Notes under the pieces: generated by a model
The model's database searches: none
What the model was told of the DNA's origin: nothing
Seen by the model: only the letters and a program-made list of their open reading frames with translations
Assembly (NCBI RefSeq): GCF_015207005.2
Contig: NZ_JADEXS020000001.1
Coordinates: forward strand, 2,790,001 to 2,854,000
Source: Desmonostoc muscorum LEGE 12446
GTDB taxonomy: Bacteria > Cyanobacteriota > Cyanobacteriia > Cyanobacteriales > Nostocaceae
Direction: 5' to 3'
DNA: 64,000 nt
Program-made: the position numbers and the translations under genes
Part shown: piece by piece, positions 12,018 to 28,496 of the stretch
How the letters are laid out: each line of letters starts with the position of its first letter
How positions within the stretch are numbered: position 1 is the first letter of the stretch

Positions 12018-14894
12018 CTAGCCCATTTGCCGAGCCATTAACTGGGCAAATAGACCTTCAACAGCGGCTAGCTCCTGAAAAGTTCCCTGTTGGACAACTC
12101 TACCTGCTTGGAGTACATAGATGCGGTGAGCGTTACGGATGGTACTAAGTCGATGAGCGATCGCAATTCTGGTAACTTGTAATTTATCTAAGCTTTCACT
12201 CACAATAGCCTGAGTTTTATTATCAAGGGCGCTGGTAGCTTCATCAAAAAATAAAACTCGTGGTTTTAATGCCAAAGCACGAGCAATCAACAATCTTTGG
12301 CGTTGTCCTCCAGAAAGATTACTACCCCCTTCACTCACCACAGTATGCATTTGCATGGGCATGGCGGTAATATCGTCAGCAAACCCAGACATCCGCGCCG
12401 CTTCCCAAGCTTCATCTAAGGTCATCTGTGCGCCACCTGCAATATTCTCGAAAATGGAAGCTGAATTTAGCTGACCATTTTGTAAAACTACGCCCAATTG
12501 TCGGCGCACTGCATCCACATCTAACCCAGACAAATCTTGACCATCGTAGTAAATACCGCCTGCTTGGGGAGTTTCAAATCCCAGTAGTAATCGCAGTAAC
12601 GTCGATTTACCACTGCCAGAAGCGCCTACCAGAGCAATAAATTCTCCTGCTTCCGCAGAGATACTCACGTCATCTAATATTAGTGCGCCATCATTGCGAT
12701 AACAAAAGGTCACATGGTCTACAGTAATTTTCCCAATGAGCTTACCAGGATCGGCTTTGTACAAATCTACCTCTGGGATAGTTGCCAAAATTGGCTGTGT
12801 GCGTCGCCATTGGGGGATGACTTGCAAAATTTCTGTAACTGTGTTGCTGAGGTTTGTAGTGCCTCTGGTAAAGTTACCAAAAGCTGTGTTAAAAGCCAGG
12901 AATGTGCCAAGAGATAATTCCACGTTTTCTGAAGTTTGCGGAGCTTCCAGCAGTTTGATCGTAAACCAGAACAATATTCCAGAAGTCAGTATGGGCATGA
13001 CTGTATTGAACAGTAAAACGGCATCTTCCACACGTTGAGTACTCAGTTCCAGTTTAATTTGCCGAGTGTAATTTTTACTCCAAGCGGCAAAGGCGCGTTC
13101 TTGTGCGCCAGCAATATGCAGTTTAGAAATACCATTGATTAGCTGCACTGTCTGCCCAAAAATACTACCCCGGATTTCCAGCAACGGACGCACTTTGGTT
13201 AACAGCAGCATACCAGAGAGTGTGGTGACTGCGATCGCAACTACTGCCACTCCAACGGCAATAAAAGCTAATTTGTAGTTGTAATAAAATAACTGCGCCA
13301 AGTAGAACAGCGCAAACAAACTGGTAATTAAATTAATTAGAGTTCTACCGCTGAGTTGGCGACGAATTGTACTCACCGAGGTGATGCGGGAGAGTAGATC
13401 CCCGGTTGTGTATTGTCGGAAAAACGACACTGGCAAATTTAGCAGCCGATCCCATACCGCCGCTTGGGTGGAAGCATCGCCAGCCGATTCCATCCGCAAC
13501 AGAGCAAACCCCTGTGCTAGCTGAAATAAAGCTGTACCCAAAGTTGCAACCAGCAAACCTAATCCGATTTGCAGCAATAAACCGCGATCGCTATCGGGAA
13601 TTGCATTATCTATAATAATTGACGTGGCATAAGGTGTAATCATCCCCAGCAGCGTCACAGCAATGCCACTAAATATAATTAACAGCAGACCTTGGTTATG
13701 TCCTTGAAGTGTGAACTGGATTATATCAATAGCTTGGAGCGCTTTATCCGGTAAAGAGCGATAAAACATATAAGCAACGGGAGCCAAGCTTGCAGCTATC
13801 TGTTCATCCACTCCGACACGGGTACGTTCAACCGGGTCAAAAATTTCATAACGAGTTGCAGAAATCGGCAGTAGCGCTACTGGGCGATTATCTTGGGTGT
13901 AGGCTATTAAAGGCCCAGAATCCTTTTCCCACCAGTTATCTCGCAACAACACCCGCCGCATCCGAACGCGTGAAGCTCGAACAATTGCTTCCAAAGGTTC
14001 CTTGAGCCGCTTCAGGTTTTCCGAACGAGACGGAGGGCGAATTTTTATACCCATCGCTCTACCAACTGCACCAGCCGCCACCAGCAAAGGTGTACCTTCT
14101 AAGAAAAAGTCCCCGTCTTGGGAATTCAACGTTGATGCTAGTTCACCTAAAGCTTCCATCGTGACTTGACGATTTAGGCGTTGGCGATCGCGCAAACGGA
14201 TTATTTCTGTTTCTGCTTCTTGCTCATCTATAATATTGATGCATTGCAAGAGTTGAGTATGCAACTGAGATAACCCAGCCAGCAGTGTATCTGGATTTGA
14301 GAATTCCCTGGTTGTGTTAGTTGTCAGTTGAACTCCCTCCACAGCTGACAACCACATTTTCTCAGTCAGGGGAAAAATTGCAGTGGTTGGCGTTAAGGTG
14401 ATTTCCTCAAACCCCAAAAAGCGGACAGTTCCTTCGTGAAGCCGTACCCAACAGGTGACACCCGCTTCTGGTTGAAAAGTCTGAGCATTATTTAAAGAAA
14501 ATCGTAGTTGTTCTTTAGCCTTCACCTGAATTTTTGGCATGGTAACTTGAGAGAATACACCACCGAGTTGCAACAGCCAGCTTTCTATCCAAGTGAAGAC
14601 TCTTGCATCTGCATTGGCTACTAACTCCCGAAAACATTCTTGATGCACTTGTAATAATTCAGTTTCGCCAATTGGAACTGCTAAAATCTGATGCTGTTGA
14701 TTAGCAATTCCAAAAAGTGCTTCACCTTGATTAATACTGCATAGATAACGGCGAGTTCCTTCAACAACCCCATCTTTGAGTGTGACAGCAAACAAAGCTA
14801 TAGAGCCAGACTGAACCACCCAAACTTTAGAAGGGTCATTCAATAGAATCGGTTCATTACCATTAATTATGTAAACCTGACCGTGCATTAGCAT
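12018..14894 (-). CDS. NHLP-type bacteriocin ABC exporter, permease/ATPase (second transporter)
   Basis: The protein is about 958 aa if it starts at ATG 14894 (MLMHGQVYIINGNEP). The frame stays open further upstream only because it enters a 21-bp tandem repeat, so the longer start is unlikely. The first 400 or so residues form the poorly defined N-terminal region typical of the NHLM_micro_ABC2 family. The membrane domain follows with about six helices. The ATPase domain has Walker A GASGSGKST, signature [15 protein letters not shown], Walker [14 protein letters not shown] and the IAHRLST switch. Unlike its partner it has no C39 peptidase. In NHLP systems two such ABC proteins plus an HlyD-like adaptor export Nif11- or nitrile hydratase-leader peptides. 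Confidence 0.9.
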   Translation of the reverse strand: MLMHGQVYIINGNEPILLNDPSKVWVVQSGSIALFAVTLKDGVVEGTRRYLCSINQGEALFGIANQQHQILAVPIGETELLQVHQECFRELVANADARVFTWIESWLLQLGGVFSQVTMPKIQVKAKEQLRFSLNNAQTFQPEAGVTCWVRLHEGTVRFLGFEEITLTPTTAIFPLTEKMWLSAVEGVQLTTNTTREFSNPDTLLAGLSQLHTQLLQCINIIDEQEAETEIIRLRDRQRLNRQVTMEALGELASTLNSQDGDFFLEGTPLLVAAGAVGRAMGIKIRPPSRSENLKRLKEPLEAIVRASRVRMRRVLLRDNWWEKDSGPLIAYTQDNRPVALLPISATRYEIFDPVERTRVGVDEQIAASLAPVAYMFYRSLPDKALQAIDIIQFTLQGHNQGLLLIIFSGIAVTLLGMITPYATSIIIDNAIPDSDRGLLLQIGLGLLVATLGTALFQLAQGFALLRMESAGDASTQAAVWDRLLNLPVSFFRQYTTGDLLSRITSVSTIRRQLSGRTLINLITSLFALFYLAQLFYYNYKLAFIAVGVAVVAIAVTTLSGMLLLTKVRPLLEIRGSIFGQTVQLINGISKLHIAGAQERAFAAWSKNYTRQIKLELSTQRVEDAVLLFNTVMPILTSGILFWFTIKLLEAPQTSENVELSLGTFLAFNTAFGNFTRGTTNLSNTVTEILQVIPQWRRTQPILATIPEVDLYKADPGKLIGKITVDHVTFCYRNDGALILDDVSISAEAGEFIALVGASGSGKSTLLRLLLGFETPQAGGIYYDGQDLSGLDVDAVRRQLGVVLQNGQLNSASIFENIAGGAQMTLDEAWEAARMSGFADDITAMPMQMHTVVSEGGSNLSGGQRQRLLIARALALKPRVLFFDEATSALDNKTQAIVSESLDKLQVTRIAIAHRLSTIRNAHRIYVLQAGRVVQQGTFQELAAVEGLFAQLMARQMG

Positions 14895-14946
14895 TTTGGA
14901 GTAGAGAGTGGGGAATGGAAATGGGGAGTGGGAGATAAGGAAGTTT

Positions 14947-15345
14947 GAGCCTTTGAACCTGAATGTTGAGCCTTTGAACCTGAACGTTGAGCCTTTGAAC
15001 CTGAACATTGAGCCTTTGAACCTGAACGTTGAGCCTTTGAACCTGAACATTGAGCCTTTGAACCTGAACATTGAGCCTTTGAACCTGAACGTTGAGCCTT
15101 TAAACCTGAACGTTGAGCCTTTGAACCTGAACGTTGAGCCTTTAAACCTGAACGTTGAGCCTTTGAACCTGAACGTTGAGCCTTTGAACCTGAACGTTGA
15201 GCCTTTGAACCTGAACGTTGAGCCTTTGAACCTGAACGTTGAGCCTTTGAACCTGAACGTTGCACCTTTGAACCTGAACGTTGCACTTTTAAACCTGAAC
15301 GTTGAGTCTTTGAACCTGAACGTTGCACCTTTGAACCTGAAACAT
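14947..15345. repeat. 19-copy 21-bp tandem repeat between the two exporter genes
   Basis: Nineteen head-to-tail copies of GAGCCTTTGAACCTGAACGT(T) with few substitutions; the last four copies vary most. The unit is divisible by three and free of stops, so both strands stay open over the whole array. That creates spurious frames, and an in-frame extension of the exporter gene that starts at 14894. It fills the gap between the stop of the first exporter's ATPase part and the start of the second exporter. Confidence 0.95.
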
Positions 15346-15351
15346 TAAGTC

Positions 15352-16089
15352 CTAACTCTCTACCACTTCCCCTTCAGTGCGAATTAACCGCGAATATACA
15401 CCGTCAACTTGCCACAATTCTTGATGAGTGCCTTGTTGTACAACCTTTCCGCGTTCTAGAACAATGATTTGATCGCAATCGCGGATAGTGCTTAATCGGT
15501 GGGCGACAATTATGCAGGTGCATCCCCGGCGACGGAGATTTTGGTCAATGATTTGTTCTGTTTCTGCATCTAGGGCGCTGGTGGCTTCATCCATGACGAG
15601 TATTGAAGGATTATTCACCAAAGCGCGAGCGATTTCTAAGCGTTGTCGCTGACCGCCACTTAAATTAGCAGCACCTTCTATAAGTTCGGCATCAAATCCT
15701 CCAGACATAGAAAGAATTACATCAGCGATCGCTGCATCTTGACAAGCGCGCATCAGGTTCTTATCTGGTACAGTAGTATCCCAGAGGGTCAAATTGTCTC
15801 GAACCGTACCGCCAAACAGCAAAATTTCCTGCTCTACCATTGCAACAGAATTTGTAAGCAGTTGTTGGGAAATCTCCTTTCTCGGTTTACCATCAAAGCA
15901 AACTTCACCCGCCCAAGATTCATAAAGTCCGCTCACCAGTTTTGCAATAGTAGACTTCCCGGAACCACTTCCACCGACCAAAGCTACTCGCTGTCCCGGC
16001 TTAATTGACATATTAAAGTTTTCAATTAATGGCGCTTCCAGGCGGCTATAACCAAAAGTGATATTCTGCAACTCCACATATCCCTGCAA
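15352..16089 (-). CDS. C39-peptidase ABC exporter, ATPase portion (separate frame)
   Basis: This is the nucleotide-binding domain of the NHLP peptidase/ABC transporter, displaced into another frame from its membrane part. The natural sequence resumes at [15 protein letters not shown]. Walker A is GGSGSGKST (39-47); then signature [15 protein letters not shown], Walker [13 protein letters not shown] and the VAHRLST switch, so the domain looks functional. The apparent TTG start at 16089 is only where the frame becomes recognisable. See the upstream part at 16026-17600 and the heptamer tract at 16116-16151. Confidence 0.8.
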
Positions 16090-17600
16090 TTTGGGAAGAA
16101 GATAGGGAGAATTTGCTCCCCCTGCCCCCTGCCCCCTGCCCCTGCCTCCCCAATGGGATTATCCAGTACGTCATCCAGCCGAATCAAATTCCCCTCCAAT
16201 TCCTGGAGAGTAGTACCAAAGTTGACGAGATTGTTAACAGGTTGCTGGAAACCTAACATTAAACCTTGAAAAGCAATGAGCATCCCGATGCTGAGATGTC
16301 CATCCATTACCCGTAAACCACCAACTACCAACAAAAATATCGAAGAAAGAGCGGATAAGAGCGTGGGTAATACAGAGAATGTCTGGTTTGTTACTCCTAA
16401 CTCCTGCTGAGAATTGAGAGCTTTGGTATAATAACCCGACCACCGGGAAAAAAAATCTGACTCCAACCCCGATGCTTTAAGTGTTTCGATACTTTGAAGT
16501 GCAGCAATGGATAACCCAGCCGCTTTACCATACTCTTGTATCAATCTTTGATTAGCATCTACCCGTTGTCGAGAAATCCACTGCAAAGTTAAGACGTTTA
16601 CAGCAGCAAAGCTGACCACCATTAAGGTCAGCACCCAGTCATATTGCACCATGACTAAGGCATAAAAAACCACCATCAAAGTATCAATAATTGTAGTTGC
16701 CAAGCGTCCCGCCAAAACATCAGCAACTTGGTCATTGAGAGTAGTTCGGTTACTAATTTCTCCAGCGAAACGTTGTGCATAAAAGCTCACAGGTAGCCGC
16801 AGGATATGCCAGAGAAAACGGCTGGACATACCTACACCCAGTTTGATTTTCAAACGGCGCAAATAGCGCAACCGTAATAGTGTTAGCGATCCTTGGAGTA
16901 TAGCAGCGATCGCCATTCCCACAAGCAAAGGACGCAGCCATAATTGCCGCCCCTGCACCAAGATGTCATCTACAAACACCTGGCTGAACACAGGCACCAC
17001 CAACCCAACCACCGTTAAGAAAAATCCCGCAACCATAGAGTAAACTAAAGCATCTCCAGCACCCTGTAGCCGTGACCACAGAGATAAAATCATGCTGGGT
17101 TTGCGACCACCTTTAGTAAACTCCGCCCCTGGCTCAATCACCAGCACAACTCCCGTATACCCCTCGTCAAATTCCTGTAGAGATACATGACGCGGCCCCG
17201 TAGCGGGGTCATTGAGAAAAACTCGCTGTTTATTCCATCCCTCTAGGACAACGAAGTGGTTGAAGTTCCAAAAAACAATATAGGGAGGACGCAGTTCTTG
17301 CAGTTTTTTTAGTTCTTTTTTAAAGCCTTTGGCTTCGAGTCCATAACTTCTGGCAGCTTTAAGCATATTAGATGCCTTACTACCATCGCGGGAAACCCCG
17401 CAATCTCGCCGCAGTTGTGGCAGTGGTACAATGCGATCGTAGTAACCCAGAATAATTCCCAAAGCCGCAGCACCACATTCCACAGCTTCCATTTGCAAAA
17501 GCGTAGGTGTTTTTACCCGAATGCTTCGGCGTGGCAGTAATTTTTGTAAATACTGCCAAGGATTAAACGGTGTTACTAAAGTAGATTTAGTAGATACCAC
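16026..17600 (-). CDS. C39-peptidase ABC exporter, peptidase and membrane portion (frameshifted end)
   Basis: The N-terminal C39 peptidase has catalytic Cys42 ([12 protein letters not shown]), His115 ([10 protein letters not shown]) and Asp131 (LNDPATGPR). It cleaves after Gly-Gly in the leader, matching both precursors in this cluster. About six membrane helices follow. The normal product of about 710-750 aa is broken near residue 484: after [11 protein letters not shown] the frame enters a G-rich heptamer repeat and ends in about 40 out-of-frame residues. One extra G in the tract would join this frame to the ATPase portion. The start overlaps the end of the HlyD gene by 14 bp, so the genes are coupled. 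It is a pseudogene, a phase-variable gene or a sequencing error. Confidence 0.85.
16116..16151. repeat. CCCCCTG heptamer tract at the exporter frameshift
   Basis: Three CCCCCTG units are followed by a six-base CCCCTG unit and CCTCCCC. The short unit lacks one C, and that single missing base accounts for the shift between the membrane and ATPase frames of the exporter. Confidence 0.85.
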
Positions 17601-19032
17601 TGACCGACCTCAAGATAGGTAAAACGAAAGTGATAGGAGCGCGTTCTTCCACGTTCACTCGCACAACAGTAGTAGTTCCCGAAGAAATTTTCAGGTGTGG
17701 CCCTGTAGAAGAAGACCACTTGTAGCCACTCGGTGTATTGGTATCTAAATCGAGGTCAGAAAAAACTTGTATTAAACCTTGTTGTTGAGATACTAAACCT
17801 TCCAGCACTTCTGAATTGCCCACCTCATTAGCCGCTGCTTCTTTGGTAATGGGAAAGCGTGAGATACTCGTAACATTACCCACAATGCCACCAAACCGTT
17901 CCCGCTTCACAGTTTGGGGAGTAATTTGTATTTTCATCCCCGGTTGAATTTTCTTCCCATCAGCAACAGGAAAATAGGTAACGCCAACCAGCTTGCTTTT
18001 AGGATTTTCCGCCTCAATGGTTGCGAGGCGAGTTCCGGCGTTGACAACTTGTCCTGGTGTCAGCGTAATTTCTAAAATGCGTCCGCTGTATTGACTAATA
18101 ATCTGGCTATCATTGCCTAACTGCACTTCTAATTGGGCAATTTCTCGCTTAACATCTTGAATCTCTTTTCTTCGGGCAGTTACACTTTCCAGGTCTTGTT
18201 GAGCCACAGAAGCCTGTTTGCTGTCCAATTCTTTCAGTTGAGCTTGCAGGTCAGAAATCGTATTCAGGTTTTGACGATAGTTTCGTTCTGTTTCTGTCTC
18301 CTTCACATCCAGTTCTTTCAACTGAGCTTGGATATCAGCAATTTTTTCCAGATTTTGCAAATATTCTTGTTCAGCCGTGAGAGCTTCATCACCGGAAATC
18401 GCCCCTTCTTTTTTGAATAGCTGTCTGCGGATTTCCATTCTCTGGAGGAAAACAGGAGTTAGAGCTTGAGCTTGCTTGAGGCGCTGTTCTAAACCTTGGC
18501 GTTGCTGTCCAATAGAGGTATTGCCTTTGGTTTTGAGGAGAGGCGTTGTAGCTCGCAGTTCCAGTATACGTTGCTGTAGGTATTGGCTTTGTTGGGATTG
18601 CGACCTTTGTTCTTGTTCCAGTCTTTGCCCTTGTAGCGAACCAACTGCCTGGTTTTGTGATTCTAATTCCGTTAGTTTAGCTTGTTGCTGTTGCAATTGC
18701 TTGCGGAGTTCAGCCTGGTCAATGGTCGCTAATACCTGCCCCTTTTTGACGACATCTCCAACTTTGACATTGAGAGCCATTAATTGCCCAGAGCTTTTTG
18801 ATTGCAACGGTACAACATTGCTGGGATAAATCAGTACCCCTTGACCTTCGACAGTGATAGGAATGCGACCGTAAATACTCCAGATAACAGCTACTCCGAC
18901 GATGGAACCCAAGGCGACAAGAGGTAGCCAACTTCTGGGGCTAACTACCTGCATCAACTGGTCTAGTCTTTCTGGAGAAGATAGACGCTCTAGAGATTCT
19001 TTGCGGAATATACTGCGCTTTTGGTTTAACAT
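17587..19032 (-). CDS. NHLP-type HlyD-family secretion adaptor
   Basis: A 481-aa membrane-fusion protein. One N-terminal membrane helix (about 36-54, LPLVALGSIVGVAVIWSIYG) is followed by a lipoyl/barrel-sandwich half (GVLIYPSNVVPLQSKSSGQL, VKVGDVVKKGQVLATID), a long Gln/Glu-rich coiled coil (about 108-300), and the second barrel half (GRILEITLTPGQVVNAGTRLATIEAE). The layout matches the HlyD-like component of NHLP systems. It would join the two ABC proteins to the cell envelope for peptide export. It overlaps the C39 exporter gene by 14 bp and lies about 180 bp downstream of the YcaO gene. Confidence 0.9.
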   Translation of the reverse strand: MLNQKRSIFRKESLERLSSPERLDQLMQVVSPRSWLPLVALGSIVGVAVIWSIYGRIPITVEGQGVLIYPSNVVPLQSKSSGQLMALNVKVGDVVKKGQVLATIDQAELRKQLQQQQAKLTELESQNQAVGSLQGQRLEQEQRSQSQQSQYLQQRILELRATTPLLKTKGNTSIGQQRQGLEQRLKQAQALTPVFLQRMEIRRQLFKKEGAISGDEALTAEQEYLQNLEKIADIQAQLKELDVKETETERNYRQNLNTISDLQAQLKELDSKQASVAQQDLESVTARRKEIQDVKREIAQLEVQLGNDSQIISQYSGRILEITLTPGQVVNAGTRLATIEAENPKSKLVGVTYFPVADGKKIQPGMKIQITPQTVKRERFGGIVGNVTSISRFPITKEAAANEVGNSEVLEGLVSQQQGLIQVFSDLDLDTNTPSGYKWSSSTGPHLKISSGTTTVVRVNVEERAPITFVLPILRSVSGIY

Positions 19033-19210
19033 CTGGTTGTGAGTGTAAAAGATACGCCTTTCTACTTACATAGCGTTATATTTTATTTGAACTACGTTAC
19101 CTATAGCCATGAACTCATATTCTGAGGGTAGGACTTGCTTTTTAGGTCTTTTTCATAAGACAAGAGGTATAATAATCTTGCATAAGTTTTATGACACTGG
19201 ATCCACTTAA

Positions 19211-20395
19211 TTAAAACAAGCGATCATTCATTTTCAAACCAGATACGAAAACCTTTACTACCGGAATATTAAATGGTGGTTGCGTTAGATTGACACGAAA
19301 AATGTTTTTATTATCAGTTTGAGATAGGCTTTCCAAAATCTGGGTATAGTCCTGGAGTAAACTATCTCCTGCCATGTCGCTTAACGTCCGCCAGTTGGTA
19401 TTACTTTCTATTAGATTAAAATAAGCATAAACTTTAGAAGCCACATTACTCGATGTATAGCAAGCTTTGACTGCTAGATCCTCACGAGAACCATGTATAA
19501 AGGTTAGGCGTGACTGAGCTGCCTCGGTAATTGCCCTAGTAGCTGCTACAGAAACATTAAGATGTGAGCCATAACCAATGTTGACCATTGAAGAGTGACT
19601 GAAAGGATTTCTATCAAGAAGAACAGCCCAGAAAGTGTGGAATGATGGTATGCAGCTTTTCACCCAGATCAAGACAAGTTTAATATCAGCCTGTAGAAGC
19701 ATCTCATACAATCCTTTAACAGATTCATCGTCCACAGTACTTAGATCAATACATTTGCAGCGCTCTTGAGTGAGACATATGCGACCATTAGCACTTAAAC
19801 GTGAGATCGCATCCCGTTCGATTACCTCATAAAGTCCATGAAGCGTCGCCTCTAACAGATGATTTCCACTGGCAAGACCGTTAGTATCAAAGGGATACAG
19901 CATTGGTGAACATATATAAACAGCGCTAGCTGGGAGCCATACTTCTTCACCTGTAAGCAAGTCTTCTGCTTTAATCCAGTCAATAATAAAATCACTGCTA
20001 AAGAAGTTCTTAGCCTTGTATTCAGGGAGAATTTCGGGTTGAACAACACGTTGACCAGTCCCTTGCATTAATTTCAAGCTACCGCGTTTGAGATCGCTGC
20101 TGGGATTTTCAGCATGAAAAATTTCAAGTGCTTCCATTAATGCCGAAACTTTAGCATCGATATGCCGCAGTCCTTTGCCATTAGTAACTTGAATAACACG
20201 ACCCCATGGCCGGATGGCACAGTAAACAGGAATACCTATACGATCTAATCCTGTAACATCAGCACACCGGGTAACACCCATCGTAGCCAAATGAGGCTTT
20301 AACCTGGCAAAGGTGCATTCTGGTTCTATCAAACGGTGTGTTCCACTAGTGTAGCCCTTGGTAAGGGGCTCCATGCTTCTTACTATATTAGGCAT
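19211..20395 (-). CDS. YcaO-domain protein (RiPP backbone-modifying)
   Basis: A 394-aa YcaO protein. The ATP-binding motif groups are present: SALMEALE (Glu88/Glu91), GLYEVIERD (Glu190, Glu193, Arg194) and TEAAQ (Glu291/Gln294). YcaO enzymes activate a backbone amide with ATP, giving azolines, thioamides or amidines depending on partners. The C-terminus (VKVFVSGLKMNDRLF) lacks the Pro-rich tail of azoline-forming YcaOs, and there is no E1-like partner; the partner is TfuA. TfuA-dependent YcaOs are known from thioamide formation (thioamitides, McrA thioglycine). The start overlaps the TfuA end by 8 bp. Substrate inferred: the Nif11-type precursor at 22565. Confidence 0.9.
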   Translation of the reverse strand: MPNIVRSMEPLTKGYTSGTHRLIEPECTFARLKPHLATMGVTRCADVTGLDRIGIPVYCAIRPWGRVIQVTNGKGLRHIDAKVSALMEALEIFHAENPSSDLKRGSLKLMQGTGQRVVQPEILPEYKAKNFFSSDFIIDWIKAEDLLTGEEVWLPASAVYICSPMLYPFDTNGLASGNHLLEATLHGLYEVIERDAISRLSANGRICLTQERCKCIDLSTVDDESVKGLYEMLLQADIKLVLIWVKSCIPSFHTFWAVLLDRNPFSHSSMVNIGYGSHLNVSVAATRAITEAAQSRLTFIHGSREDLAVKACYTSSNVASKVYAYFNLIESNTNWRTLSDMAGDSLLQDYTQILESLSQTDNKNIFRVNLTQPPFNIPVVKVFVSGLKMNDRLF

Positions 20396-22031
20396 AGTTC
20401 TTTTCTACCAGTTGTGTGACTCTACCAGTAATCTGCAATTCTCTGATTAAGGCTACTTTAAAATTCCAGACACGACCAAAGTAACTTGGCCTTTGTTCCA
20501 CAATCCACTCTGCAAGAGCACGTTCTGCCAATAATGCTCTGTAAGATTTCAAATTCAAGCCTGTAGCTTGTAACCAATTAGCATCGTCAGTAATACCATG
20601 TGCTACCTCCCACTGCTTTACGTAACTGTTCAAGCAATCTGGTGGATATGAAACTCCATTTTGTCTAGCCCATTCTAGGAGAAATCGACGTTGTGATAGC
20701 TCTAACCAAATATCGGCTAGTTCAGCAGACCATTCGTTCTGCACATCAACTTTAAATAGCCTAATAAATTCGATTCCAGTACTTTCGTCAATAATAGGAC
20801 TACTCTTGGAAGAAGCAACTAAAAACGCAGGATCATCTTGGGACTCTTGCTTGCACTCTTTCCAACTAACCATTCTTAGTGGTTTGATTTTAAAATATGC
20901 TTGCTCTTTAGAAGACAGTTGAATAGCGCTTCCTATAAGCTGCAATTCTTCCTCAAGAGCTTGTTGAAAACTCCAATTCAGTCCAAAATAGTCAGGTCCT
21001 TGTCTGATTATCCAATCGAGGAAGGCGTGTTCTTCCAGCAGCATCTTGAAGGTTATGGACGTCAAGCCATTAGCTCGCAACCAGTCTCCGTCTTCAATCC
21101 CGTGTTTTTGTTTCCACTGCTCGACATAGGCATCTAAGTTTTCCGTATAGCATACGCTATTTTGTCTAGCCCAATCCAGAACAAAGTATTGCTTTGATAA
21201 GGTTTTATACATAGCACTCACCAAGAGCGGATCCTTTTGTGCTTCTTGCAAAACCTTTTCTCCAGTGATCAAACCCTGGGAACTCATAAAGCCATGAACG
21301 AGAAGTTGGTCACCTTGCCAAATTGCACTTGTTGAGGATAAAGAGTTAAGGTATTTTTCTGGCTTTCGTTTCCCTTTAAGACTAGCGCAGTGATTAAGCA
21401 CTCCAATGGCATCAAGCCTTTTAAGGTCAATGGATTTTGTACGGAAGTATTGCTCAAGCTTTATCAAGTCGTCCTGAGACCAGTTCTTTAAGACTGGACT
21501 ATTTAGAAGCTGGCGATAGGAGCGATCTGGATAGTAGGTTCGTTTGGCATATTCGGTCAGTTGTTGTGCTTGCTCACTTGTGAGGTAATGGTCTTCAATC
21601 GCTTTGAGTAAGGTGTAGCGGATATTAACCAACGGCTCGGAAAGGGGACGAAAGTCAGCTTCTTGAGGAGCATGTAAGAGGGCTACTTCATCATCACCAT
21701 CAATAACACCATCACGATACCATTCAAAGATCGTGCCATAACCAATCATGCCGAAATTGTGTAACTCCGCAGCTCGCAATGCTCCCATGCTTGACGCACC
21801 AAGTACCTGAATACCTTCTTCTATAGCAGCGAGGAGTTCACGCTGCCAGACAGACGGTGTGCTATGAAAAAGTCCATCCACTAAAACGATAGTTTCTACA
21901 CCAAGCGCCATAATACGGTAAACATCGCCTTGACGAGCTGGAGGGTAGTAGTCCGCATCAAGTACCTCACGAGCCTGATTCTGTGGTAATGAAGAACCCA
22001 GGAATACAGCTATAGATTTGAATGCATTCAC
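20388..22031 (-). CDS. TfuA-like protein with duplicated C-terminal module
   Basis: A 547-aa protein. Residues about 1-165 are the TfuA core, with the hallmark LGASSMGALRAAEL near 77-90. TfuA proteins assist YcaO in thioamide formation, probably by supplying or handling the sulfur donor. The usual TfuA is much shorter. Here residues about 281-372 and 448-541 form two copies of an unrecognised, probably helical module. Each copy contains [FL]xL[DE]WARQN, QW-HGI-D, WL-A-GL, W[FI]-YFG and an EL[Q]L-like end. TfuA-core size and the repeats suggest an added substrate-binding function, which is inference. It precedes and overlaps the YcaO gene. Confidence 0.85.
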   Translation of the reverse strand: MNAFKSIAVFLGSSLPQNQAREVLDADYYPPARQGDVYRIMALGVETIVLVDGLFHSTPSVWQRELLAAIEEGIQVLGASSMGALRAAELHNFGMIGYGTIFEWYRDGVIDGDDEVALLHAPQEADFRPLSEPLVNIRYTLLKAIEDHYLTSEQAQQLTEYAKRTYYPDRSYRQLLNSPVLKNWSQDDLIKLEQYFRTKSIDLKRLDAIGVLNHCASLKGKRKPEKYLNSLSSTSAIWQGDQLLVHGFMSSQGLITGEKVLQEAQKDPLLVSAMYKTLSKQYFVLDWARQNSVCYTENLDAYVEQWKQKHGIEDGDWLRANGLTSITFKMLLEEHAFLDWIIRQGPDYFGLNWSFQQALEEELQLIGSAIQLSSKEQAYFKIKPLRMVSWKECKQESQDDPAFLVASSKSSPIIDESTGIEFIRLFKVDVQNEWSAELADIWLELSQRRFLLEWARQNGVSYPPDCLNSYVKQWEVAHGITDDANWLQATGLNLKSYRALLAERALAEWIVEQRPSYFGRVWNFKVALIRELQITGRVTQLVEKNYA

Positions 22032-22564
22032 TGTTTCATCTGCCCATTTCCAAAAGTTTATTCGTTAATTTCTCAATGGCATTGATTTAAAAATGTTCTA
22101 TTCCCAAATCGGAACAGTAATTTATTCATTATTGCTATTATTGGCGATCGCATCGCATTGCCTCAGCACTGTATGTTAATAAACAATACAACCACTACTA
22201 AGCCGGCTAAAAAATTTTGTGTCCACTTTATAGTAATTTTTCTTTTTACAGAATCTACTGAATATCCCTAGTAAATACAACTACTATGATATTCATACCT
22301 TACAGATAAAATCACTATTGGCGGCTTTACCAATAGTTATTATGGAAAGAGTTGAAAGTAAAAACAGCCAGCAACTTTTGCCGCGTTAACAAGCTGCTTA
22401 CTGGCTGGTTTCAAAGTAAACTGGTCTACAAGCAAAAAATACCCTAGATTTGAAATCTTAACTTGAGATTTTTGGATTTTAGATTTAGTTTTGCTGAACT
22501 CCTAAATTACAACTAGTTTAGTGTATGCAAGACTTTATCCAGTTTATCTAGCATATTTTATTGC
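22032..22564. other. Intergenic region between TfuA gene and first precursor
   Basis: About 530 bp with no gene seen in any frame. It contains the intrinsic terminator at 22360-22407, a HIP1-like GGCGATCGC near 22143, and the likely promoter region of the TfuA-YcaO-exporter genes, without a convincing -35/-10 pair that I would defend. Confidence 0.6.
22360..22407 (-). terminator. Intrinsic terminator after the first Nif11 precursor
   Basis: Read on the minus strand, arms CAGCCAG and CTGGCTG (with weaker inner pairing) are followed by TTTTTA. It lies about 150 nt after the precursor stop and more than 300 nt before TfuA. It would let the precursor be transcribed in excess over the modification and export genes. 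Confidence 0.55.
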
Positions 22565-22816
22565 TCACTCTACCACAATGTGAATCTTAATTTTCAATCC
22601 GCCTGCTACAGCCTCCAATTCATCCTCAGACAGTTCTGCATCTGCTGCAGTAACTTCTTGCATAAAAACTTGTAGTTCCTCTGTAGTAAACTGATAGCCC
22701 CGTTCATTGGCCATCTGAATTATGCTTGTTGAGCTATTGCCAGCTTTGAGCTTCTCTTGCAGTACTTCATCATTTTCAGCGACTTTAAAAAAGCCTCTTA
22801 CTGTTTCTTTTGACAT
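22565..22816 (-). CDS. Nif11-type RiPP precursor 1 (core lacks Cys/Ser/Thr)
   Basis: An 83-aa peptide with a Nif11-like leader (MSKETVRGFFKVAENDEV..., then GYQFTTEELQVFM) and the classic acidic end DELEAVAGG. Cleavage after Gly-Gly by the C39 exporter would release a ten-residue core, LKIKIHIVVE. The core alternates hydrophobic and polar residues and has no Cys, Ser or Thr. Azoline formation and lanthionine chemistry are therefore impossible on it, whereas backbone thioamidation (YcaO/TfuA next door) or radical epimerisation would be possible. The start has only a weak Shine-Dalgarno. It is the gene nearest TfuA-YcaO, so it is the probable substrate. Confidence 0.9.
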   Translation of the reverse strand: MSKETVRGFFKVAENDEVLQEKLKAGNSSTSIIQMANERGYQFTTEELQVFMQEVTAADAELSEDELEAVAGGLKIKIHIVVE

Positions 22817-23151
22817 AACTTTAATTAACCTTTTCTAACCGCTCATAACACCAACATCTTTAAATTGGTGAGGAAGCAAAGCGGGATATTTATGCTTCCT
22901 TATTTCTATATTTGATAATACAACCACTCGCAAAATTGATAAATAATATTCTGTATGCTCTACAGTATTTTTTTATTGGCAAGCTGACAACTTGAGAAAA
23001 ATCACCCATAAGCTTAGGTAGCTTTGCAGGGGAAACGCATCTAAATTACTCTTGATCACAACGAAGGTTAAGAACCAACTAAAAAAGCAGCATTTACCCT
23101 TTAGTTTAGTTTCCCAGATTTGAAGGCAAAGTTTATCGCAAATTTATTACT
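22817..23151. other. Intergenic region upstream of precursor 1
   Basis: About 335 AT-rich bases between the precursor and the MBL-fold gene. I see no further precursor-like frame with a Gly-Gly leader end and no clear promoter consensus. Confidence 0.5.
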
Positions 23152-24588
23152 TTATTTACTTAGTCTGACAAGAGTATTTCCTATCTTCATCATCAAAGTC
23201 TTGCTTTCATCCAAAAATGAACTATTTTCAATAGGTTGTTTCCATTTTTCCACTTCTTTATGCCGAATAACATCGAAAATTTCTTTGTAAGGAAATCTGA
23301 AAATAAGAGGGTCTTCTATTTCTCCTTCATTTGGTTTAATAATTCCATGATTAGTTGCTAAATATATTTTTTTAAATCGGCGATAATAGCCACTTATATA
23401 AACATAATCCCATCCTTTAATTTGTTTTAAAAGTCCATAAAAACTTGAAGCTGTGATAATGGTAAATAAATTAGCAAAAGTATTACGCCCTAAGCAAGCT
23501 TGAATGTTATCTTTTGAAAAGTCAAATGACCATTTATAAGAGGAATCGGGAAAAACAACCTCTAGTTGATAAATCACATTCCAGTGGCAATGTTCTAGAA
23601 ATAGAGAATCTTTATTATCTTGAAGAAATTTAGTTAGATTTATGTTGACTTCTTGTTCTATTGCTTCTTTCATCTCATTAAGATTATAATTATCGTGATT
23701 TTTGTCGATGAGATTAGCTCCCACCTTCACAGGAGAAAAATCCAAGCTTTCTCTATTATCGTCCATCTTATTTACAAACTGAGACATTTCTTTTAAGTAG
23801 CTAAATTCGCCATTTTTAAATGCGAGGATGTCACCTGGATCTAGAGTAAATACGTTTTCTTTTATTTCTGGGCAAACCATCCTTACATCTCTACAAAATT
23901 GTTCTCGCGTTACAGGAAATAAAATCTGATTCAGCCAAGATGATTCATTGATAAGTTTGAAACCATTAGAGCCAGGAGCGATCGCTCTTGGTTTAATCCT
24001 GCTAATGTTCCTAAGTAACTTATTATATGAAGAGTAAGGAAAGGATAAACTCTCATTACATTGGTAGTTGCTCTCTAACATTGGTTGCCAGAGTGCCAAT
24101 AAGAAATCAACTTGGGGATAGCGAGATTTTACAAAACGAATTGTATCTGTGCTAACATCTGAATCTACTTGATTCCAGAAAACGCCTGATTTATCGGCAA
24201 ATACTATGCCATATTCAGGTAAGCGGTATTCTGAGCGAGTGGTAAGGATATTGGTAGAGCCAATTTTAACTTCACTGAAATCTCCCAAAGGATAGATTTG
24301 CGAATACCCCAATTTACGAAGACAGGTTTCTAATATTTTGTCTTTAGGAATTAAGACATCAACTGTTTTTGGTAAATAAGCCAGAGAACGAACATCAAAG
24401 TGATCCAAATGTCTATGAGATATGATTAGCAAATCAAATTCTGGAATTCGTTCATGAATCACTTCCCGCGTTGGAAATACTTCTTCCATTCCTTCGCAGT
24501 GTGGATCCCATAACACGGGATCCATAAGAATCTTGCAATCCTGCGTTTCGACAAATATTGAAGCATGTCCAATCATGTGAATTTCCAT
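23152..24588 (-). CDS. Metallo-beta-lactamase-fold protein with C-terminal extension
   Basis: A 478-aa protein. The N-terminal 260 or so residues have an MBL fold with the metal motif SHRHLDHFD (His58, His60, Asp62, His63), the early MIGHASIFVE strand and an LMDPVLWDPH segment, like the UlaG/CMP-NeuAc-hydroxylase group. The C-terminal 200 residues, ending MKIGNTLVRLSK, are not recognised. It lies between two RiPP precursors in a same-strand run, so a tailoring or peptide-hydrolysing role is plausible but unproven. The DNA is noticeably AT-richer than the exporter genes, which may point to separate acquisition. Confidence 0.8.
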   Translation of the reverse strand: MEIHMIGHASIFVETQDCKILMDPVLWDPHCEGMEEVFPTREVIHERIPEFDLLIISHRHLDHFDVRSLAYLPKTVDVLIPKDKILETCLRKLGYSQIYPLGDFSEVKIGSTNILTTRSEYRLPEYGIVFADKSGVFWNQVDSDVSTDTIRFVKSRYPQVDFLLALWQPMLESNYQCNESLSFPYSSYNKLLRNISRIKPRAIAPGSNGFKLINESSWLNQILFPVTREQFCRDVRMVCPEIKENVFTLDPGDILAFKNGEFSYLKEMSQFVNKMDDNRESLDFSPVKVGANLIDKNHDNYNLNEMKEAIEQEVNINLTKFLQDNKDSLFLEHCHWNVIYQLEVVFPDSSYKWSFDFSKDNIQACLGRNTFANLFTIITASSFYGLLKQIKGWDYVYISGYYRRFKKIYLATNHGIIKPNEGEIEDPLIFRFPYKEIFDVIRHKEVEKWKQPIENSSFLDESKTLMMKIGNTLVRLSK

Positions 24589-24750
24589 AGCTCACCTCTG
24601 TTGTTACTAAGTTTTTAGCTAGAGTGGAAGTAGCAAGAAAAATTAGCCGCTTCCTTATTAAAGATTGAGATTAAAACATAACCCTATTCAAACTGGCTTA
24701 ACACTTTTTGTTACAGGATCTAATATTTAGTATTTAAAAGTAAAAATAAA

Positions 24751-25284
24751 TCACTTAAACTCTAAGCAGTGTAAAAGTTCTACTAATAAATCTTCGTTTG
24801 ATCCAGCAATATTCAAGGTAATAGCCCTTAAACTATCAACATAGCTAAGATATGTTTCATACTGTTCGCGTTTATCTGAAGGGATTTTGTCAAACTCAAC
24901 TCCTTTCCCCCATCGGTGAACAGTATTTGGTTTAATTTTTAATACTTTTGCAATTAATTTGATGCATTTCTCCCTATAACCGTGTTCTGACTCTATTGCT
25001 AAAATAAGTTTTTCTGTATAATATGGTTGCCGATTATCATCCAAGTCTTCTAGTCCAAACCACCGACGGCAAAATTTTCTTGGGTGTATACCTTTTCCTT
25101 GAAAAACACACGTTTTCAAAATTTTATCAACCTCCAATACTGATTGAGAATTTCTAATTTTTGGTAGCAAATATTCTGTGTTATGCACATCTTGAAGACC
25201 TGCATTGCGTTTAGCTACTTCTATGACTTTGAAGCCATGAAAATGTTCATAAATCTCTGACTTAAGATTTCCTGTCTGTAACAT
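24751..25284 (-). CDS. HTH-containing protein of unknown function in the RiPP operon
   Basis: A 177-aa protein starting 9 nt after the stop of the small coupled protein. Residues near 121-150 (IKLIAKVLKIKPNTVHRWGKG) look like a helix-turn-helix of the XRE type. A basic region with GIHPRKFCRRWFGLED precedes it. No membrane segment. I do not recognise the family. Its place behind the maturase suggests a cluster regulator or an accessory protein. It is AT-rich, like the MBL gene next to it. Confidence 0.7.
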   Translation of the reverse strand: MLQTGNLKSEIYEHFHGFKVIEVAKRNAGLQDVHNTEYLLPKIRNSQSVLEVDKILKTCVFQGKGIHPRKFCRRWFGLEDLDDNRQPYYTEKLILAIESEHGYREKCIKLIAKVLKIKPNTVHRWGKGVEFDKIPSDKREQYETYLSYVDSLRAITLNIAGSNEDLLVELLHCLEFK

Positions 25285-25293
25285 AATAATTTA

Positions 25294-25509
25294 TTAACTG
25301 ATGTCAATTCTTCCTTTTAAATATGTGCAATAAGTTTTTGGTTGCCAAAGAATGGCAGTCAATTCTGCCATGTCCAAAGCTTGTTTAGCCCTAATTATTG
25401 CTTTTAAAAAAGCTTGTTCATCTTGCCAGCCAGAGCGAGGTAAGAGGGGCTGAGAAATTAACAGCTCTTCAGATAAACGTTCATCAGTTTCTTCGTTTAA
25501 ATGATTCAT
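25294..25509 (-). CDS. Small protein (71 aa) translationally coupled to the radical SAM maturase
   Basis: ATG at 25509 overlaps the maturase stop in an ATGA, so the upstream extension of this frame to 25560 is not needed. The product starts MNHLNEETDERLSEEL and contains PLLPRSGWQDEQAFLKAI and a Cys-Thr-Tyr-Leu near the end. It is acidic, soluble and probably helical. Position and size fit the accessory protein that accompanies spliceotide radical SAM enzymes (PlpY with PlpX), but I recognise it by context, not by sequence. Confidence 0.7.
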   Translation of the reverse strand: MNHLNEETDERLSEELLISQPLLPRSGWQDEQAFLKAIIRAKQALDMAELTAILWQPKTYCTYLKGRIDIS

Positions 25510-26768
25510 ATTGCTACAGAATAAGAAACTTCGAGTTTGTCTTGCCAAGTTTCTGGCCATTGGATGGAGTCAGCAGTAAAGTGAAGTGGATCATTCTCCG
25601 GCCAAGGCACGTCAAGGGGTTCTTCAATAATGCTAAACTCGCCGTTGTCGAAGGGAATCCCTGGTGCTGACACTTTTGGATAAACCCGTTCCCGGATGCT
25701 GCGTTTTGCCAATTCGAGAGCGCGGTGGTGGCAGTAAGGATTATTGCCTCTGCGATTGAAAAATACATGTGCTGTCCAAGTGCAGCCTCCGCGACACAAC
25801 TCAGCAAACTTGCAAGTCTTACAGAATCCCCATAAGTGAGCTGTTCCTTCAGGCGTACCAGCATTAAGATTAAACTGCAATTCTTCAGCTTGTTCAATGA
25901 CTTCTTGCAAAGAGCGATCGCGGATATTACCACCTGCATAAGCAGCTGTAGGCAATGAAGGACAACCTTTAATCGTACCGTCTGCCTCCAACCCTAGAGT
26001 AGACAGTCCAGCACCGCAACCCCGCCAAAATCCCCATTCATCACCTTGTCCCCGCAGCAAACGTTCGTAGGGACCGTAGTAACCAATGTTGTTACCAGCC
26101 GCAACTTTTACTCCTTCAGTGTTAGCCTGTCGAACGACACGAGCCACCATAGGGTAGAGGTCTAATAGTTCGCTGGGTTGGAGAAGAATATCCGCATTGT
26201 CTGCGGCATTTCCCATCGGCACAGTCAGTTGAATTTGCCATGCTCGCGCACCTGCATCGCGGATATGCTCGTAGATGCGAGGGAATTCTGGGGCAGACAG
26301 ACGGTTGATTTGCGTATTACAGCCGAAGGGGATTCCGACTTCCTTTAGGTAACTCATGGTTCTTAGTCCAGATTTCCAAGAGCCTTTTCGTCCCCGGAGG
26401 CGATCGTGAGTTTCTTCCATTCCATCCGTAGAAACGGAAACTTTAGCAATTCCGGCTTCTTTCATCTGGTACGCCATTTCCAGAGAGATGCCGTAACCCC
26501 CGGTAGTCATACCGCAGAGCATACCAGCCTGGGTAATGGCTTTTGCAATTACCAACCAATCGGGGCGCAGAAAAGCTTCTCCTCCAATGAGAGTTACTTC
26601 TTTAATCCCGACATCAGCTAACTGCTGAACAAGATTAAGGGCTTCTTCAGTGGAGAGTTCTTTATGCCGTGCCTGTCCTGCCCGCGAACCACAATGACTA
26701 CAAGCAAGGTTGCATTTCAAAGTGATTTCCCAAACAGCATAACTGGTTCGATGGTACTTTTCAGACAT
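25506..26768 (-). CDS. Radical SAM/SPASM maturase for the Nif11-type peptide (spliceotide-like)
   Basis: A 420-aa protein. The radical SAM cluster motif is CNLACSHC (Cys19, Cys23, Cys26), with LIGGEAFLRPDW as the following SAM-binding strand. The C-terminal SPASM region is Cys-rich: GFWRGCGAGLS, IKGCPSLPT, FCKTCKFAELCRGGC and NPYCHH, enough for two auxiliary [4Fe-4S] clusters. It belongs to the Nif11-associated peptide maturases, the group that includes PlpX. It lies 50 bp downstream of a precursor with a Leu-Tyr-Gly motif and is coupled to a small partner. The likely reaction is radical excision of the tyrosine-derived segment to leave an alpha-keto-beta-amino acid. Epimerisation or a cross-link is the alternative. 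Confidence 0.85.
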   Translation of the reverse strand: MSEKYHRTSYAVWEITLKCNLACSHCGSRAGQARHKELSTEEALNLVQQLADVGIKEVTLIGGEAFLRPDWLVIAKAITQAGMLCGMTTGGYGISLEMAYQMKEAGIAKVSVSTDGMEETHDRLRGRKGSWKSGLRTMSYLKEVGIPFGCNTQINRLSAPEFPRIYEHIRDAGARAWQIQLTVPMGNAADNADILLQPSELLDLYPMVARVVRQANTEGVKVAAGNNIGYYGPYERLLRGQGDEWGFWRGCGAGLSTLGLEADGTIKGCPSLPTAAYAGGNIRDRSLQEVIEQAEELQFNLNAGTPEGTAHLWGFCKTCKFAELCRGGCTWTAHVFFNRRGNNPYCHHRALELAKRSIRERVYPKVSAPGIPFDNGEFSIIEEPLDVPWPENDPLHFTADSIQWPETWQDKLEVSYSVAI

Positions 26769-26818
26769 TGTTTTGCCCAGGTTTTGGTATTGGCTTGGTA
26801 ATAGCAGTGCAATAAGTA

Positions 26819-27112
26819 TTAAATTGTGTCGTATGGGGCTGGAAATATACCGTACAAAGCTACAGGACCTGGATAGCAGCTTTTTTTTATCCCACCTGCG
26901 ATCGCCTCTAATTCAGCTTCGTCTAGTTCCTCGGTGGAAGTTGCCTCTAACATTTCAGCACTAGTAGTTTCCCATTCTTCTTCAGTGAAAGCATATCCTT
27001 CTGCTTGTAAGAAAGTTCCACGTTCTTCAATCGGATAGCTTTCAACTTGAGTACGGAAAGCTTCATCTGTTGTGACTCTCTGATAAAAAGCTTTTGCACT
27101 TTCAATAGACAT
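26819..27112 (-). CDS. Nif11-type RiPP precursor 2 (Leu-Tyr-Gly core)
   Basis: A 97-aa peptide with strong Shine-Dalgarno AGGAGG seven bases before ATG. The Nif11-type leader (SAKAFYQRVTTDEAFR, GYAFTEEEWE) ends in AELEAIAGG. The 23-residue core begins IKKSCYPGP and continues VALYGIFPAP. The Leu-Tyr-Gly in it fits the X-Tyr-Gly motif cut out by spliceotide radical SAM enzymes; the maturase gene follows directly. One Cys, one Ser and one Thr are present too. Removal of the leader is presumably done by the C39 exporter. First gene of its transcription unit, with a 170-bp promoter region upstream. Confidence 0.9.
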   Translation of the reverse strand: MSIESAKAFYQRVTTDEAFRTQVESYPIEERGTFLQAEGYAFTEEEWETTSAEMLEATSTEELDEAELEAIAGGIKKSCYPGPVALYGIFPAPYDTI

Positions 27113-27165
27113 ATAATTTCCTCCTATTAATATCTAAAACATTAGGAAAAACAAGATAAAACTAC

Positions 27166-27206
27166 AATGCACAATTTTTGGGTAAGACTATGATTTTTTT
27201 CGTTTT
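27166..27206 (-). promoter_or_regulatory. 41-bp element upstream of precursor 2, shared with 36832-36872
   Basis: The stretch beginning AATGCACAATTTTTGGG (plus-strand reading) matches 36832-36872 at 34 of 41 positions in the same orientation. Each copy lies upstream of a minus-strand gene: 54 nt before this precursor and about 125 nt before the Cache-HAMP gene. Shared regulation is possible, but it could also be a scattered repeat. Confidence 0.4.
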
Positions 27207-27282
27207 GCTTCGTGCCACTATGAATTCACTGTAGTTTATCTAAACTAGGAGATTTGTTCAGCGAGCTTTTTATATCCAGGAA

Positions 27283-28377
27283 TTAACTTACTTTTAACCG
27301 TCTTACCATCCACTCAAATCTTTTTGCTGCGATCGCCACACGATCTAAAACGTTATCATTCAATTCATCCTCATATTCTACATCTTTCACCAACGGTGAA
27401 CCTTTACTATAAACGCGTCTACCATAACCAAGTTGACTCAGCATTCCTTGCAATCTTTGAGAAAGCAAAGTTGCAATAACCTGATAAAAACGAGATGCAA
27501 ATCCTATATCTTGCTGTAACTTTGCTGCTAATTGCTGTCGGTCAATTGACAACACAATTGAATCTTCAATAGCTTTAACTGTTGCCAAAGGTAGGCGGCC
27601 ATCAATGAAGGGTGTTTCGCCGATGATTTCGCCTTTGGACAATCTTGCTAGTTCTTTACCAGAAACTTCACTACCTTCTATAGCAGCAAAAGCACGAGCT
27701 AAGGGGTTACGCTCATTTTCATCAATAGATAAAGACATTGCTCCATCTAAAAGAATATACAGCCCATCCACAAGCCCTCTTTCACGGATAAGTACTGTAT
27801 TAGCAAGAATTTTTTGCACTTTACCACAAGTCGTCATCCAATCGATGTCACTATCATGTAATCCTCCTAAGACAAATAGTACATCCCTCAAAGGTTGACT
27901 TTGTGCGAAGTTACTACGTCCCTGTTGATTAATGGTGCTTTGAATTCTATCGGAAAGTATAATTGCGATCGCTCGATAAAAACGCGAAGCAAAACCAACA
28001 TCTTGCTGCAACTTTGCTGCCAATTTCTGTTGGGAAATCGACATTACTAGAGATTTTTCTACAGCTTTTATAGTTGTGGCTGTAAGACGAGTTCCTACAA
28101 ATGGAAGTTCTCCTACTACCTCGCCACTAGATAATCTCGCAATCTCTCGACTGAAGACTTCATCTCCTTCGATAGCTGCGAAAGCACGAGTTAAAGGATT
28201 ATTATCTGGTTGAGAAATACTAACTGTTAAAATGCCATCTAGTAAAATGTACAAACAATCGGTAGCTTTTCCTTCTTCGATAAGTATAGTGCCAGCAGCT
28301 ATTTCTCGTTTATGACCTGTTGCAATCATCCAATCAATGTCACTGGTAGTTAATTCTTTGAGTAGAACTTCTGTCAT
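27283..28377 (-). CDS. Protein with two cyclic-nucleotide-binding domains
   Basis: A 364-aa protein with a duplicated module. Each copy has a cNMP-type beta-roll (GTILIEEGKATDCLYILLDG and NTVLIRERGLVDGLYILLDG), a GEVVGELPF/GEIIGETPF phosphate-cassette-like loop, then KLAAKLQQDxGFASRFY. The key Arg of cAMP-binding cassettes is not evident (ELPFVGTRLTATT / ETPFIDGRLPLAT), so ligand binding is uncertain. No HTH, so it is not a CRP-type regulator. It is the last gene of the 33307-27283 run. Such proteins accompany NHLP clusters in cyanobacteria; role unknown. Confidence 0.8.
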   Translation of the reverse strand: MTEVLLKELTTSDIDWMIATGHKREIAAGTILIEEGKATDCLYILLDGILTVSISQPDNNPLTRAFAAIEGDEVFSREIARLSSGEVVGELPFVGTRLTATTIKAVEKSLVMSISQQKLAAKLQQDVGFASRFYRAIAIILSDRIQSTINQQGRSNFAQSQPLRDVLFVLGGLHDSDIDWMTTCGKVQKILANTVLIRERGLVDGLYILLDGAMSLSIDENERNPLARAFAAIEGSEVSGKELARLSKGEIIGETPFIDGRLPLATVKAIEDSIVLSIDRQQLAAKLQQDIGFASRFYQVIATLLSQRLQGMLSQLGYGRRVYSKGSPLVKDVEYEDELNDNVLDRVAIAAKRFEWMVRRLKVS

Positions 28378-28403
28378 AACTAATACCTATTTTTAATTTT
28401 ATC

Positions 28404-28494
28404 AGAACTTACGCAAAAACTCTCTGCAACTCTTATTCCTTGGCGCACTTGGCGTACTTGGCGGTTCGTTTTTTGATGATTTTGCATAAGTTCT
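28404..28494. repeat. MITE-like palindromic element (91 bp)
   Basis: Terminal inverted repeats AGAACTTACGCAAAA and, reversed, AGAACTTATGCAAAA match at 14 of 15 bases. The inside carries AACTCTCTGCAACTCTTA and a GGCG-x-ACTTGGCG-type direct repeat. A related left end occurs at 51354 and a shorter one at 40733. It directly follows the metallopeptidase gene. Confidence 0.75.
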
Positions 28495-28496
28495 AT

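Follow-up and report, generated by a model that had tools for sequence, protein, structure and literature searches.

Genes at the locus

The DNA analysed here, called the window, is a 64-kb stretch of the 9.6-Mb genome of the cyanobacterium Desmonostoc muscorum LEGE 12446 (family Nostocaceae; contig NZ_JADEXS020000001.1, positions 2,790,001 to 2,854,000), and the subject of this analysis is a TfuA-YcaO gene pair that lies beside a peptide precursor, precursor 1, with the predicted core LKIKIHIVVE. The genes stand in one minus-strand run in the order cyclic-nucleotide-binding protein, precursor 2, PlpX-type enzyme, an 88-residue open reading frame (ORF), the protein W177, metallo-beta-lactamase (MBL)-fold protein, precursor 1, TfuA, YcaO, HlyD, the C39 and ATPase-part ORFs, and an NHLP transporter (Table 1). 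A sequence-only reading of this DNA had pointed to a TfuA-YcaO pair next to a core free of Cys, Ser and Thr, and the genes do lie where it placed them, with domain scores above the cut-offs. That reading did not mention a 533-base gap between precursor 1 and TfuA, nor precursor 2 and the PlpX-type enzyme upstream of precursor 1. Because these last two belong to the same run, precursor 1 is not the only candidate substrate at the locus.

The Nif11 leader match and the GG that closes the leader of precursor 1 (AVAGG) leave LKIKIHIVVE as the predicted product, the peptide that the earlier reading had named, and its lack of Cys, Ser and Thr agrees with the point made there that no residue is available for azoline or lanthionine formation. 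Taken by itself, this lack is only mildly unusual in a ten-residue core, because it is shared by 7 of the 49 distinct Nif11-like cores that our script had delimited in the loci fetched up to that point. Inspection by eye of the non-annotated ORFs of at least 22 residues between 19000 and 28500 gave no further hidden precursor with a leader and a GG site. Precursor 2 also carries a Nif11 leader and a GG site, and an LYG motif lies in its core. The model matched by the PlpX-type enzyme, TIGR04103, is one that we take to be the same as IPR026482. PlpX has been assigned to IPR026482 (PMC11002830) and LYG is a natural PlpXY site (PMC10533398), so that enzyme and motif together mark a predicted spliceotide (PlpXY) module; here and below, published systems are described as in the accessible portions of the cited papers. 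Pfam and NCBIfam searches gave no match for either W177 or the 88-residue ORF. W177 is present at several of the export loci compared below, G376 not being one of them.

The genes for TfuA and YcaO overlap by 8 bases. The closest named family for YcaO is TIGR03266, the equivalog for McrA-glycine thioamidation (best match, 224.7 bits), its nearest solved sequence is MJ1094 (E 4.7e-32, YcaO residues 15-372 aligned), and it clusters with the YcaO of Hyella patelloides (support 97/99). TfuA exceeds the gathering score of PF07812, and the predicted fold of its domain matches 6xp8. The SagD-type model for azoline (thiazole/oxazole-modified microcin) synthesis, TIGR03604, scores 99.9 bits on YcaO and does not reach its cut-off of 219.25, and neither TIGR03882 nor TIGR03603, which describe the leader-binding ThiF/RiPP recognition element (RRE; RiPP, ribosomally synthesized and post-translationally modified peptide) partner, matched any of the ten neighbouring proteins scanned. 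Given the lack of a partner protein among these ten and a core without Cys, Ser and Thr, we rejected azoline formation on precursor 1; the core of precursor 2 has all three residues.

Table 1. Features of the locus, with positions in the window
Feature	Position	Strand	Evidence
Precursor 1: Nif11 leader (residues 1-73) and predicted core LKIKIHIVVE	22565..22816	-	TIGR03798 57.1 bits (cut-off 32.3), PF07862 48.3 bits
Conserved region upstream of precursor 1, putative promoter/regulatory role	22817..22977	-	blastn matches up to 22975 (G744) and 22977 (G755); alignment
TfuA, 547 aa: TfuA domain (about 1-222) and helical C-terminal extension with two repeats	20388..22031	-	PF07812 159.9 bits
YcaO, 394 aa, predicted thioamidation type	19211..20395	-	PF02624 210.7 bits (gathering score 25.7; residues 72-387)
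Precursor 2: Nif11 leader, core IKKSCYPGPVALYGIFPAPYDTI, LYG motif, spliceotide type	26819..27112	-	TIGR03798 72.9 bits (cut-off 32.3)
PlpX-type radical SAM/SPASM enzyme, predicted splicease	25506..26768	-	TIGR04103 861.5 bits (cut-off 725)
Small ORF (88 aa) after PlpX, candidate PlpY	25294..25560	-	Position; counterpart after PlpX in G376
MBL-fold protein, distant likeness to CmlA diiron monooxygenases	23152..24588	-	PF13483; CmlA 4jo0
W177, 177-aa protein	24751..25284	-	Matches at E<=1e-10 in 18 of the 217 genomes of the family
Cyclic-nucleotide-binding, bacteriocin-transport-associated protein	27283..28377	-	TIGR03896 422 bits (cut-off 161)
HlyD-type adaptor of the NHLP exporter	17587..19032	-	TIGR03794 550.7 bits (cut-off 156)
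C39 peptidase/permease ORF (16026-17600) and ATPase-part ORF (15352-16089)	15352..17600	-	PF03412 and PF00664 (first ORF); ATPase part from sequence reading
NHLP exporter permease/ATPase	12018..15071	-	TIGR03797 1055.6 bits (cut-off 709), full profile

Core and enzyme differences between genomes

The genes that flank precursor 1 and its neighbouring enzymes make up an export locus, and genomes of the same genus have this locus again with other tailoring cassettes. When the window was compared with G376, a genome of the same genus, DNA identity was 91% over the exporter (11936-14913 and 15359-19032), 89% over the splice module (25329-28461) and 80% over the MBL gene (23143-24610), with no match over 19033-23142, which holds precursor 1, TfuA and YcaO, or over 24611-25328, which holds W177. 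G376 has a fused cyclodehydratase that scores 173.8 bits with TIGR03882 and 287.2 bits with TIGR03604, and a SagB dehydrogenase that scores 189.9 bits with TIGR03605. Each of these scores is above cut-off, and the Nif11 precursor that accompanies the two enzymes is a different one, whose core, VKKISLCTASVEF, contains Cys/Ser/Thr. A whole-genome search of G376 gave no match to TfuA, and its gene order is not identical, the MBL gene adjoining HlyD. Azoline machinery coincides with a Cys/Ser/Thr-containing core in G376, and TfuA-YcaO with a core free of these residues in the window.

Two further genomes, G744 and G755, keep the leader of precursor 1 and the DNA upstream of it, whereas the core and the enzymes differ. 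Identity over the leader DNA is 68.5% and 65.8%, respectively, and over the core DNA 35.9% and 17.9%, the latter figures being taken over only 39 columns. The G744 core, VSKNNINNNIKGRSLSGAESLGDAESLGGAEILPNTGV, stands next to a radical SAM protein whose B12-binding match is sub-threshold; the neighbour of the G755 core, VYHQDVDLPDGTHIHTHA (after AVAGA), is a protein of 334 residues that matches nothing but a Nif11 domain, and that below threshold. With the leader and the upstream region in common, core and adjacent enzymes therefore change as a set, and it is mainly because they differ together that we think the enzymes next to a precursor probably act on it. This co-variation, seen in three genomes, supports that view as comparative rather than direct evidence. 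It also suggests that precursor core and enzymes may form an exchangeable cassette within a conserved export locus that would serve the spliceotide-type module as well.

TfuA is present in 13 of the 217 genomes of the family, and in 12 of these 13, the window included, it adjoins a Nif11 precursor; the contig of the thirteenth is cut. In the stretch fetched, a Nif11 precursor is present in 11 of the 12 other TfuA-bearing genomes (the contig of the twelfth, G809, ends before any precursor). Each of the 12 precursors found there has Cys, Ser or Thr in its core, and 11 have Cys, whereas the core of precursor 1 has none of the three. In this company the core of precursor 1 is more unusual than its composition alone would make it, standing out among the TfuA neighbours of the family.

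Proposed thioamidation of precursor 1 and rival explanations

The explanation that we favour for these patterns, judged only slightly more probable than not, is that TfuA-YcaO thioamidates the core of precursor 1, to give a secreted, Nif11-led thioamidated peptide. Precursor 1 would yield the Nif11-led peptide; YcaO, using ATP, and TfuA, delivering sulfur, would turn one or more backbone C=O groups of its core into C=S; and cleavage after the GG would fall to the C39 peptidase that belongs to the shared NHLP exporter, secretion of the peptide following. This scheme, from the choice of substrate and the position of the thioamide to cleavage and export, is predicted from the gene content, the family matches, the predicted TfuA fold and the cassette differences between genomes. 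YcaO-TfuA systems are known to act at residues other than Cys, Ser and Thr, namely Pro in thiovarsolin (PMC6511847), Asn in StdA (PMC13174530) and Gly in McrA (PMC5589413). Thioamidation of precursor 1 had been put forward by the sequence-only reading and is supported in part: the cassette comparison speaks for it, and precursor 2 is a rival substrate in the same run.

Several observations weigh against thioamidation of precursor 1. YcaO stays below the TIGR03266 equivalog cut-off of 365 bits, and TfuA, at 233.4 bits, falls 1.8 bits short of the NF033432 equivalog cut-off of 235.2, which is passed by the TfuA of Hyella (238.1) and by P0173 (238.8). The nearest relative of precursor 1, P0002 (79%), has a core, LRIKIHIDIGKAVEEYTE, that ends in ...EYTE and so contains Thr, and the cores of P0003-P0005 likewise have Ser or Thr. 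The 5689-base contig of P0002 is not among the matches listed for either enzyme (the best 120 of 545 YcaO and the best 120 of 1212 TfuA relatives), and no second case of such a core beside TfuA-YcaO was found among these matches, although the P0002 contig may be short. G745, a genome of the same species, has no TfuA match, and precursor 1 matches a single Nif11 sequence there, at 33% (5.2e-7), which also occurs elsewhere in the window's own genome (G000). The G376 precursor differs as a whole, leader included, and not in its core alone. The C39 transporter, one ORF in relatives, is split here into two ORFs in different frames. The change of frame lies close to a 7-base repeat of the CCCCCTG type (16118-16146), within a linker whose length is not constant between relatives; in G376 the counterpart is a single 764-residue ORF with a linker of another length. 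The terminator scan gave 9 terminator-like sites over 18900-28600 against 6.5 +/- 2.4 expected (fold z -1.33), which is chance level and therefore silent on co-transcription across the 533-base gap, and the promoter scan of the locus was equally uninformative. Finally, Hyella, which has the closest named TfuA-YcaO, pairs it with spliceotide genes and has no peptide of the precursor 1 type in 19 kb of its 27-kb contig.

The Hyella locus (L024) leads to an alternative that we regard as unlikely, in which TfuA-YcaO thioamidates precursor 2, or both precursors, so that a thioamide and an alpha-keto-beta-amino acid would occur in one product and precursor 1 would be a bystander or a second substrate. 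Its proteins match those of the window at 57% (TfuA), 73% (YcaO), 77% (PlpX) and 65% over 124 residues (W177), and beside its TfuA-YcaO and PlpX-type enzyme stand seven Nif11 precursors, each of which has a tail that contains YG, while none belongs to the precursor 1 type; on one reading, itself improbable, the pairing of these genes in another cyanobacterial family would be selected rather than accidental. The place of precursor 2 within the minus-strand run of the window fits as well. However, TfuA-YcaO adjoins precursor 1 and not precursor 2, and the splice module is separable from TfuA-YcaO, because it is present in G376, where PlpX is 94% identical to that of the window and is accompanied by the core RGSIALYGLPPELF and a counterpart of the small ORF, and in G686 (PlpX 86%), both of which lie outside the TfuA-bearing genomes. 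Moreover, directly after YcaO Hyella has four short-leader GG peptides, one of them, LPPLINGLFPLPNDPEIKNK, without Cys, Ser or Thr, which no NCBIfam model matched and which could be the substrates of its TfuA-YcaO instead.

A shade less probable is that another enzyme, such as the CmlA-like MBL-fold protein, modifies precursor 1, or that the peptide is exported unmodified, the target of TfuA-YcaO lying elsewhere in the genome. Precursor 1 comes straight after the MBL gene, whose relatives stand by Nif11 precursors in many clusters, and the leaders most like that of precursor 1 accompany quite different enzymes. Yet the MBL relatives go with LanM, UPF0489-type, azoline and other cassettes and follow no single core type, the match to CmlA (4jo0, E 1.2e-4) is confined to residues 4-116, about the N-terminal quarter, and the regular adjacency of TfuA to a Nif11 precursor in the family argues against a target elsewhere. 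Least likely is a decaying or inactive locus with a worn remnant for a core and a broken exporter, since the split C39 transporter, the state of G745 and a core 8 residues shorter than that of P0002, which would fit it, are set against open frames for YcaO, TfuA, PlpX and both precursors, the long alignment of YcaO with MJ1094, a core start (L-K/R-IKIHI) that is common to P0002 and so looks kept, a possible TTG start for the ATPase-part ORF, a second NHLP transporter that is complete over its profile, and a split that could stem from phase variation or a slip in the assembly as well as from a true change of frame.

If precursor 1 is indeed thioamidated, a Nif11-led peptide with a plain hydrophobic/polar core would widen the range of sequences accepted by YcaO-TfuA. 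The contrast within one genus and one export locus, an azoline set with a Cys/Ser/Thr core as opposed to TfuA-YcaO with a core free of them, amounts to a natural experiment that bears on how peptide pathways exchange chemistry along with substrates. The locus also offers paired constructs for studying leader recognition by TfuA-YcaO, with no RRE partner recognised among the ten neighbours scanned.

Known systems and further loci

Thioviridamide-like thioamitides contain an S-aminovinylcysteine (AviCys)-type macrocycle made from Cys and Ser/Thr. Precursor 1, whose core has none of these residues, falls outside that class, and to this extent its product would be unlike described thioamitides, as the sequence-only reading had claimed; among thioamidated peptides at large, one without Cys, Ser and Thr is known. 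This is APR, the peptide released in the thiovarsolin pathway of Streptomyces varsoviensis, where a precursor (varA), a YcaO (varY) and a TfuA (varT) suffice for the thioamide (PMC6511847), and such peptides are not new. The thiovarsolin precursor has a repeating core, whereas a single ten-residue core, a Nif11 leader and a cyanobacterial NHLP export locus are found here. TfuA-YcaO beside a Nif11 leader is already known too, from 18 unique cyanobacterial TfuA-related biosynthetic gene clusters with Nif11-like precursors in Anabaena and others (PMC8120280). StdGH, the YcaO-TfuA pair of Streptomyces thermodiastaticus, likewise places a backbone thioamide at a residue other than Cys, Ser or Thr (Asn), but on a core motif SNKEWQE and with a multinuclear non-heme iron-dependent oxidase (MNIO) and a carbamoyltransferase as partners; four earlier YcaO-TfuA RiPP classes, chimeric lanthipeptides among them, are listed with it (PMC13174530).

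The methanogen system for McrA glycine thioamidation is the closest named family for both window proteins and shares the 6xp8 fold match. It differs in that its substrate is a large enzyme and that the 6xp8 chain, at 217 residues, has no C-terminal extension, and the window proteins stay below its equivalog cut-offs. PlpXY of Pleurocapsa sp. PCC 7319 resembles the module of precursor 2, with its LYG motif and TIGR04103 enzyme; here this module is a neighbouring one, and TfuA-YcaO is not mentioned with PlpXY in the accessible portions of the two reports (PMC10533398, PMC11002830). As far as we searched, the locus adds a Nif11 core without Cys, Ser and Thr, the difference in cassettes between genomes and the connection to spliceotide genes; no report of such a core beside TfuA-YcaO, or of spliceotide genes with TfuA, was found in the titles and abstracts of the papers listed, most subscription papers being outside this scope.

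Apart from the cut contig of G809, the other TfuA loci of the family fall into two types. Four genomes have a Trp halogenase (PF04820) and mostly FYYG...C.QW cores, and these loci (L018:5017-6540, L049, L050, L051) also carry a radical SAM protein (PF04055 45.9 bits). Seven genomes have cores that end in ...MCCW (L019, L020, L054, L182-L185), with a cupin/JmjC protein nearby in 6 of the 7. Among 25 distinct TfuA loci that were fetched, the window excluded, a LanM-type protein lies by TfuA in 9 (L021, L023, L053, L055-L060), as called by LANC_like and DUF4135 matches for L021 and by blastp to the L021 protein for the others; these loci are candidates for thioamidated lanthipeptides. The 334-residue protein at L094:8634-9638 has its sub-threshold Nif11 match at the N-terminus and no family match in the remainder, and a hydroxylase role for it is only a guess.

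The MBL-fold protein adjoins many kinds of Nif11 cluster, including LanM, UPF0489-type, azoline and splicease clusters (L096, L098, L119, L121, L156-L170), and its use as a marker of the class of precursor 1 was rejected, as it accompanies several classes. Three of its loci (L096:7543-8994, L098 and L160) combine the MBL gene with a protein that has a UPF0489 domain (30.9 bits against a cut-off of 27) and with Nif11 cores rich in alternating Arg (LFDNWRIRIRWGGGW and others). Peptide arginases of this type are known. The WRIRIRW-like cores of L096 and L098 come with a different enzyme set, and kinship with the core of precursor 1 was set aside. Elsewhere in the window, a 21-base tandem repeat of about 19 copies (14945-15341) overlaps the ORF of the second NHLP transporter where it begins, and an ISKra4-like transposase ORF lies at 33621-35081 (121.2 bits, under its cut-off of 205).

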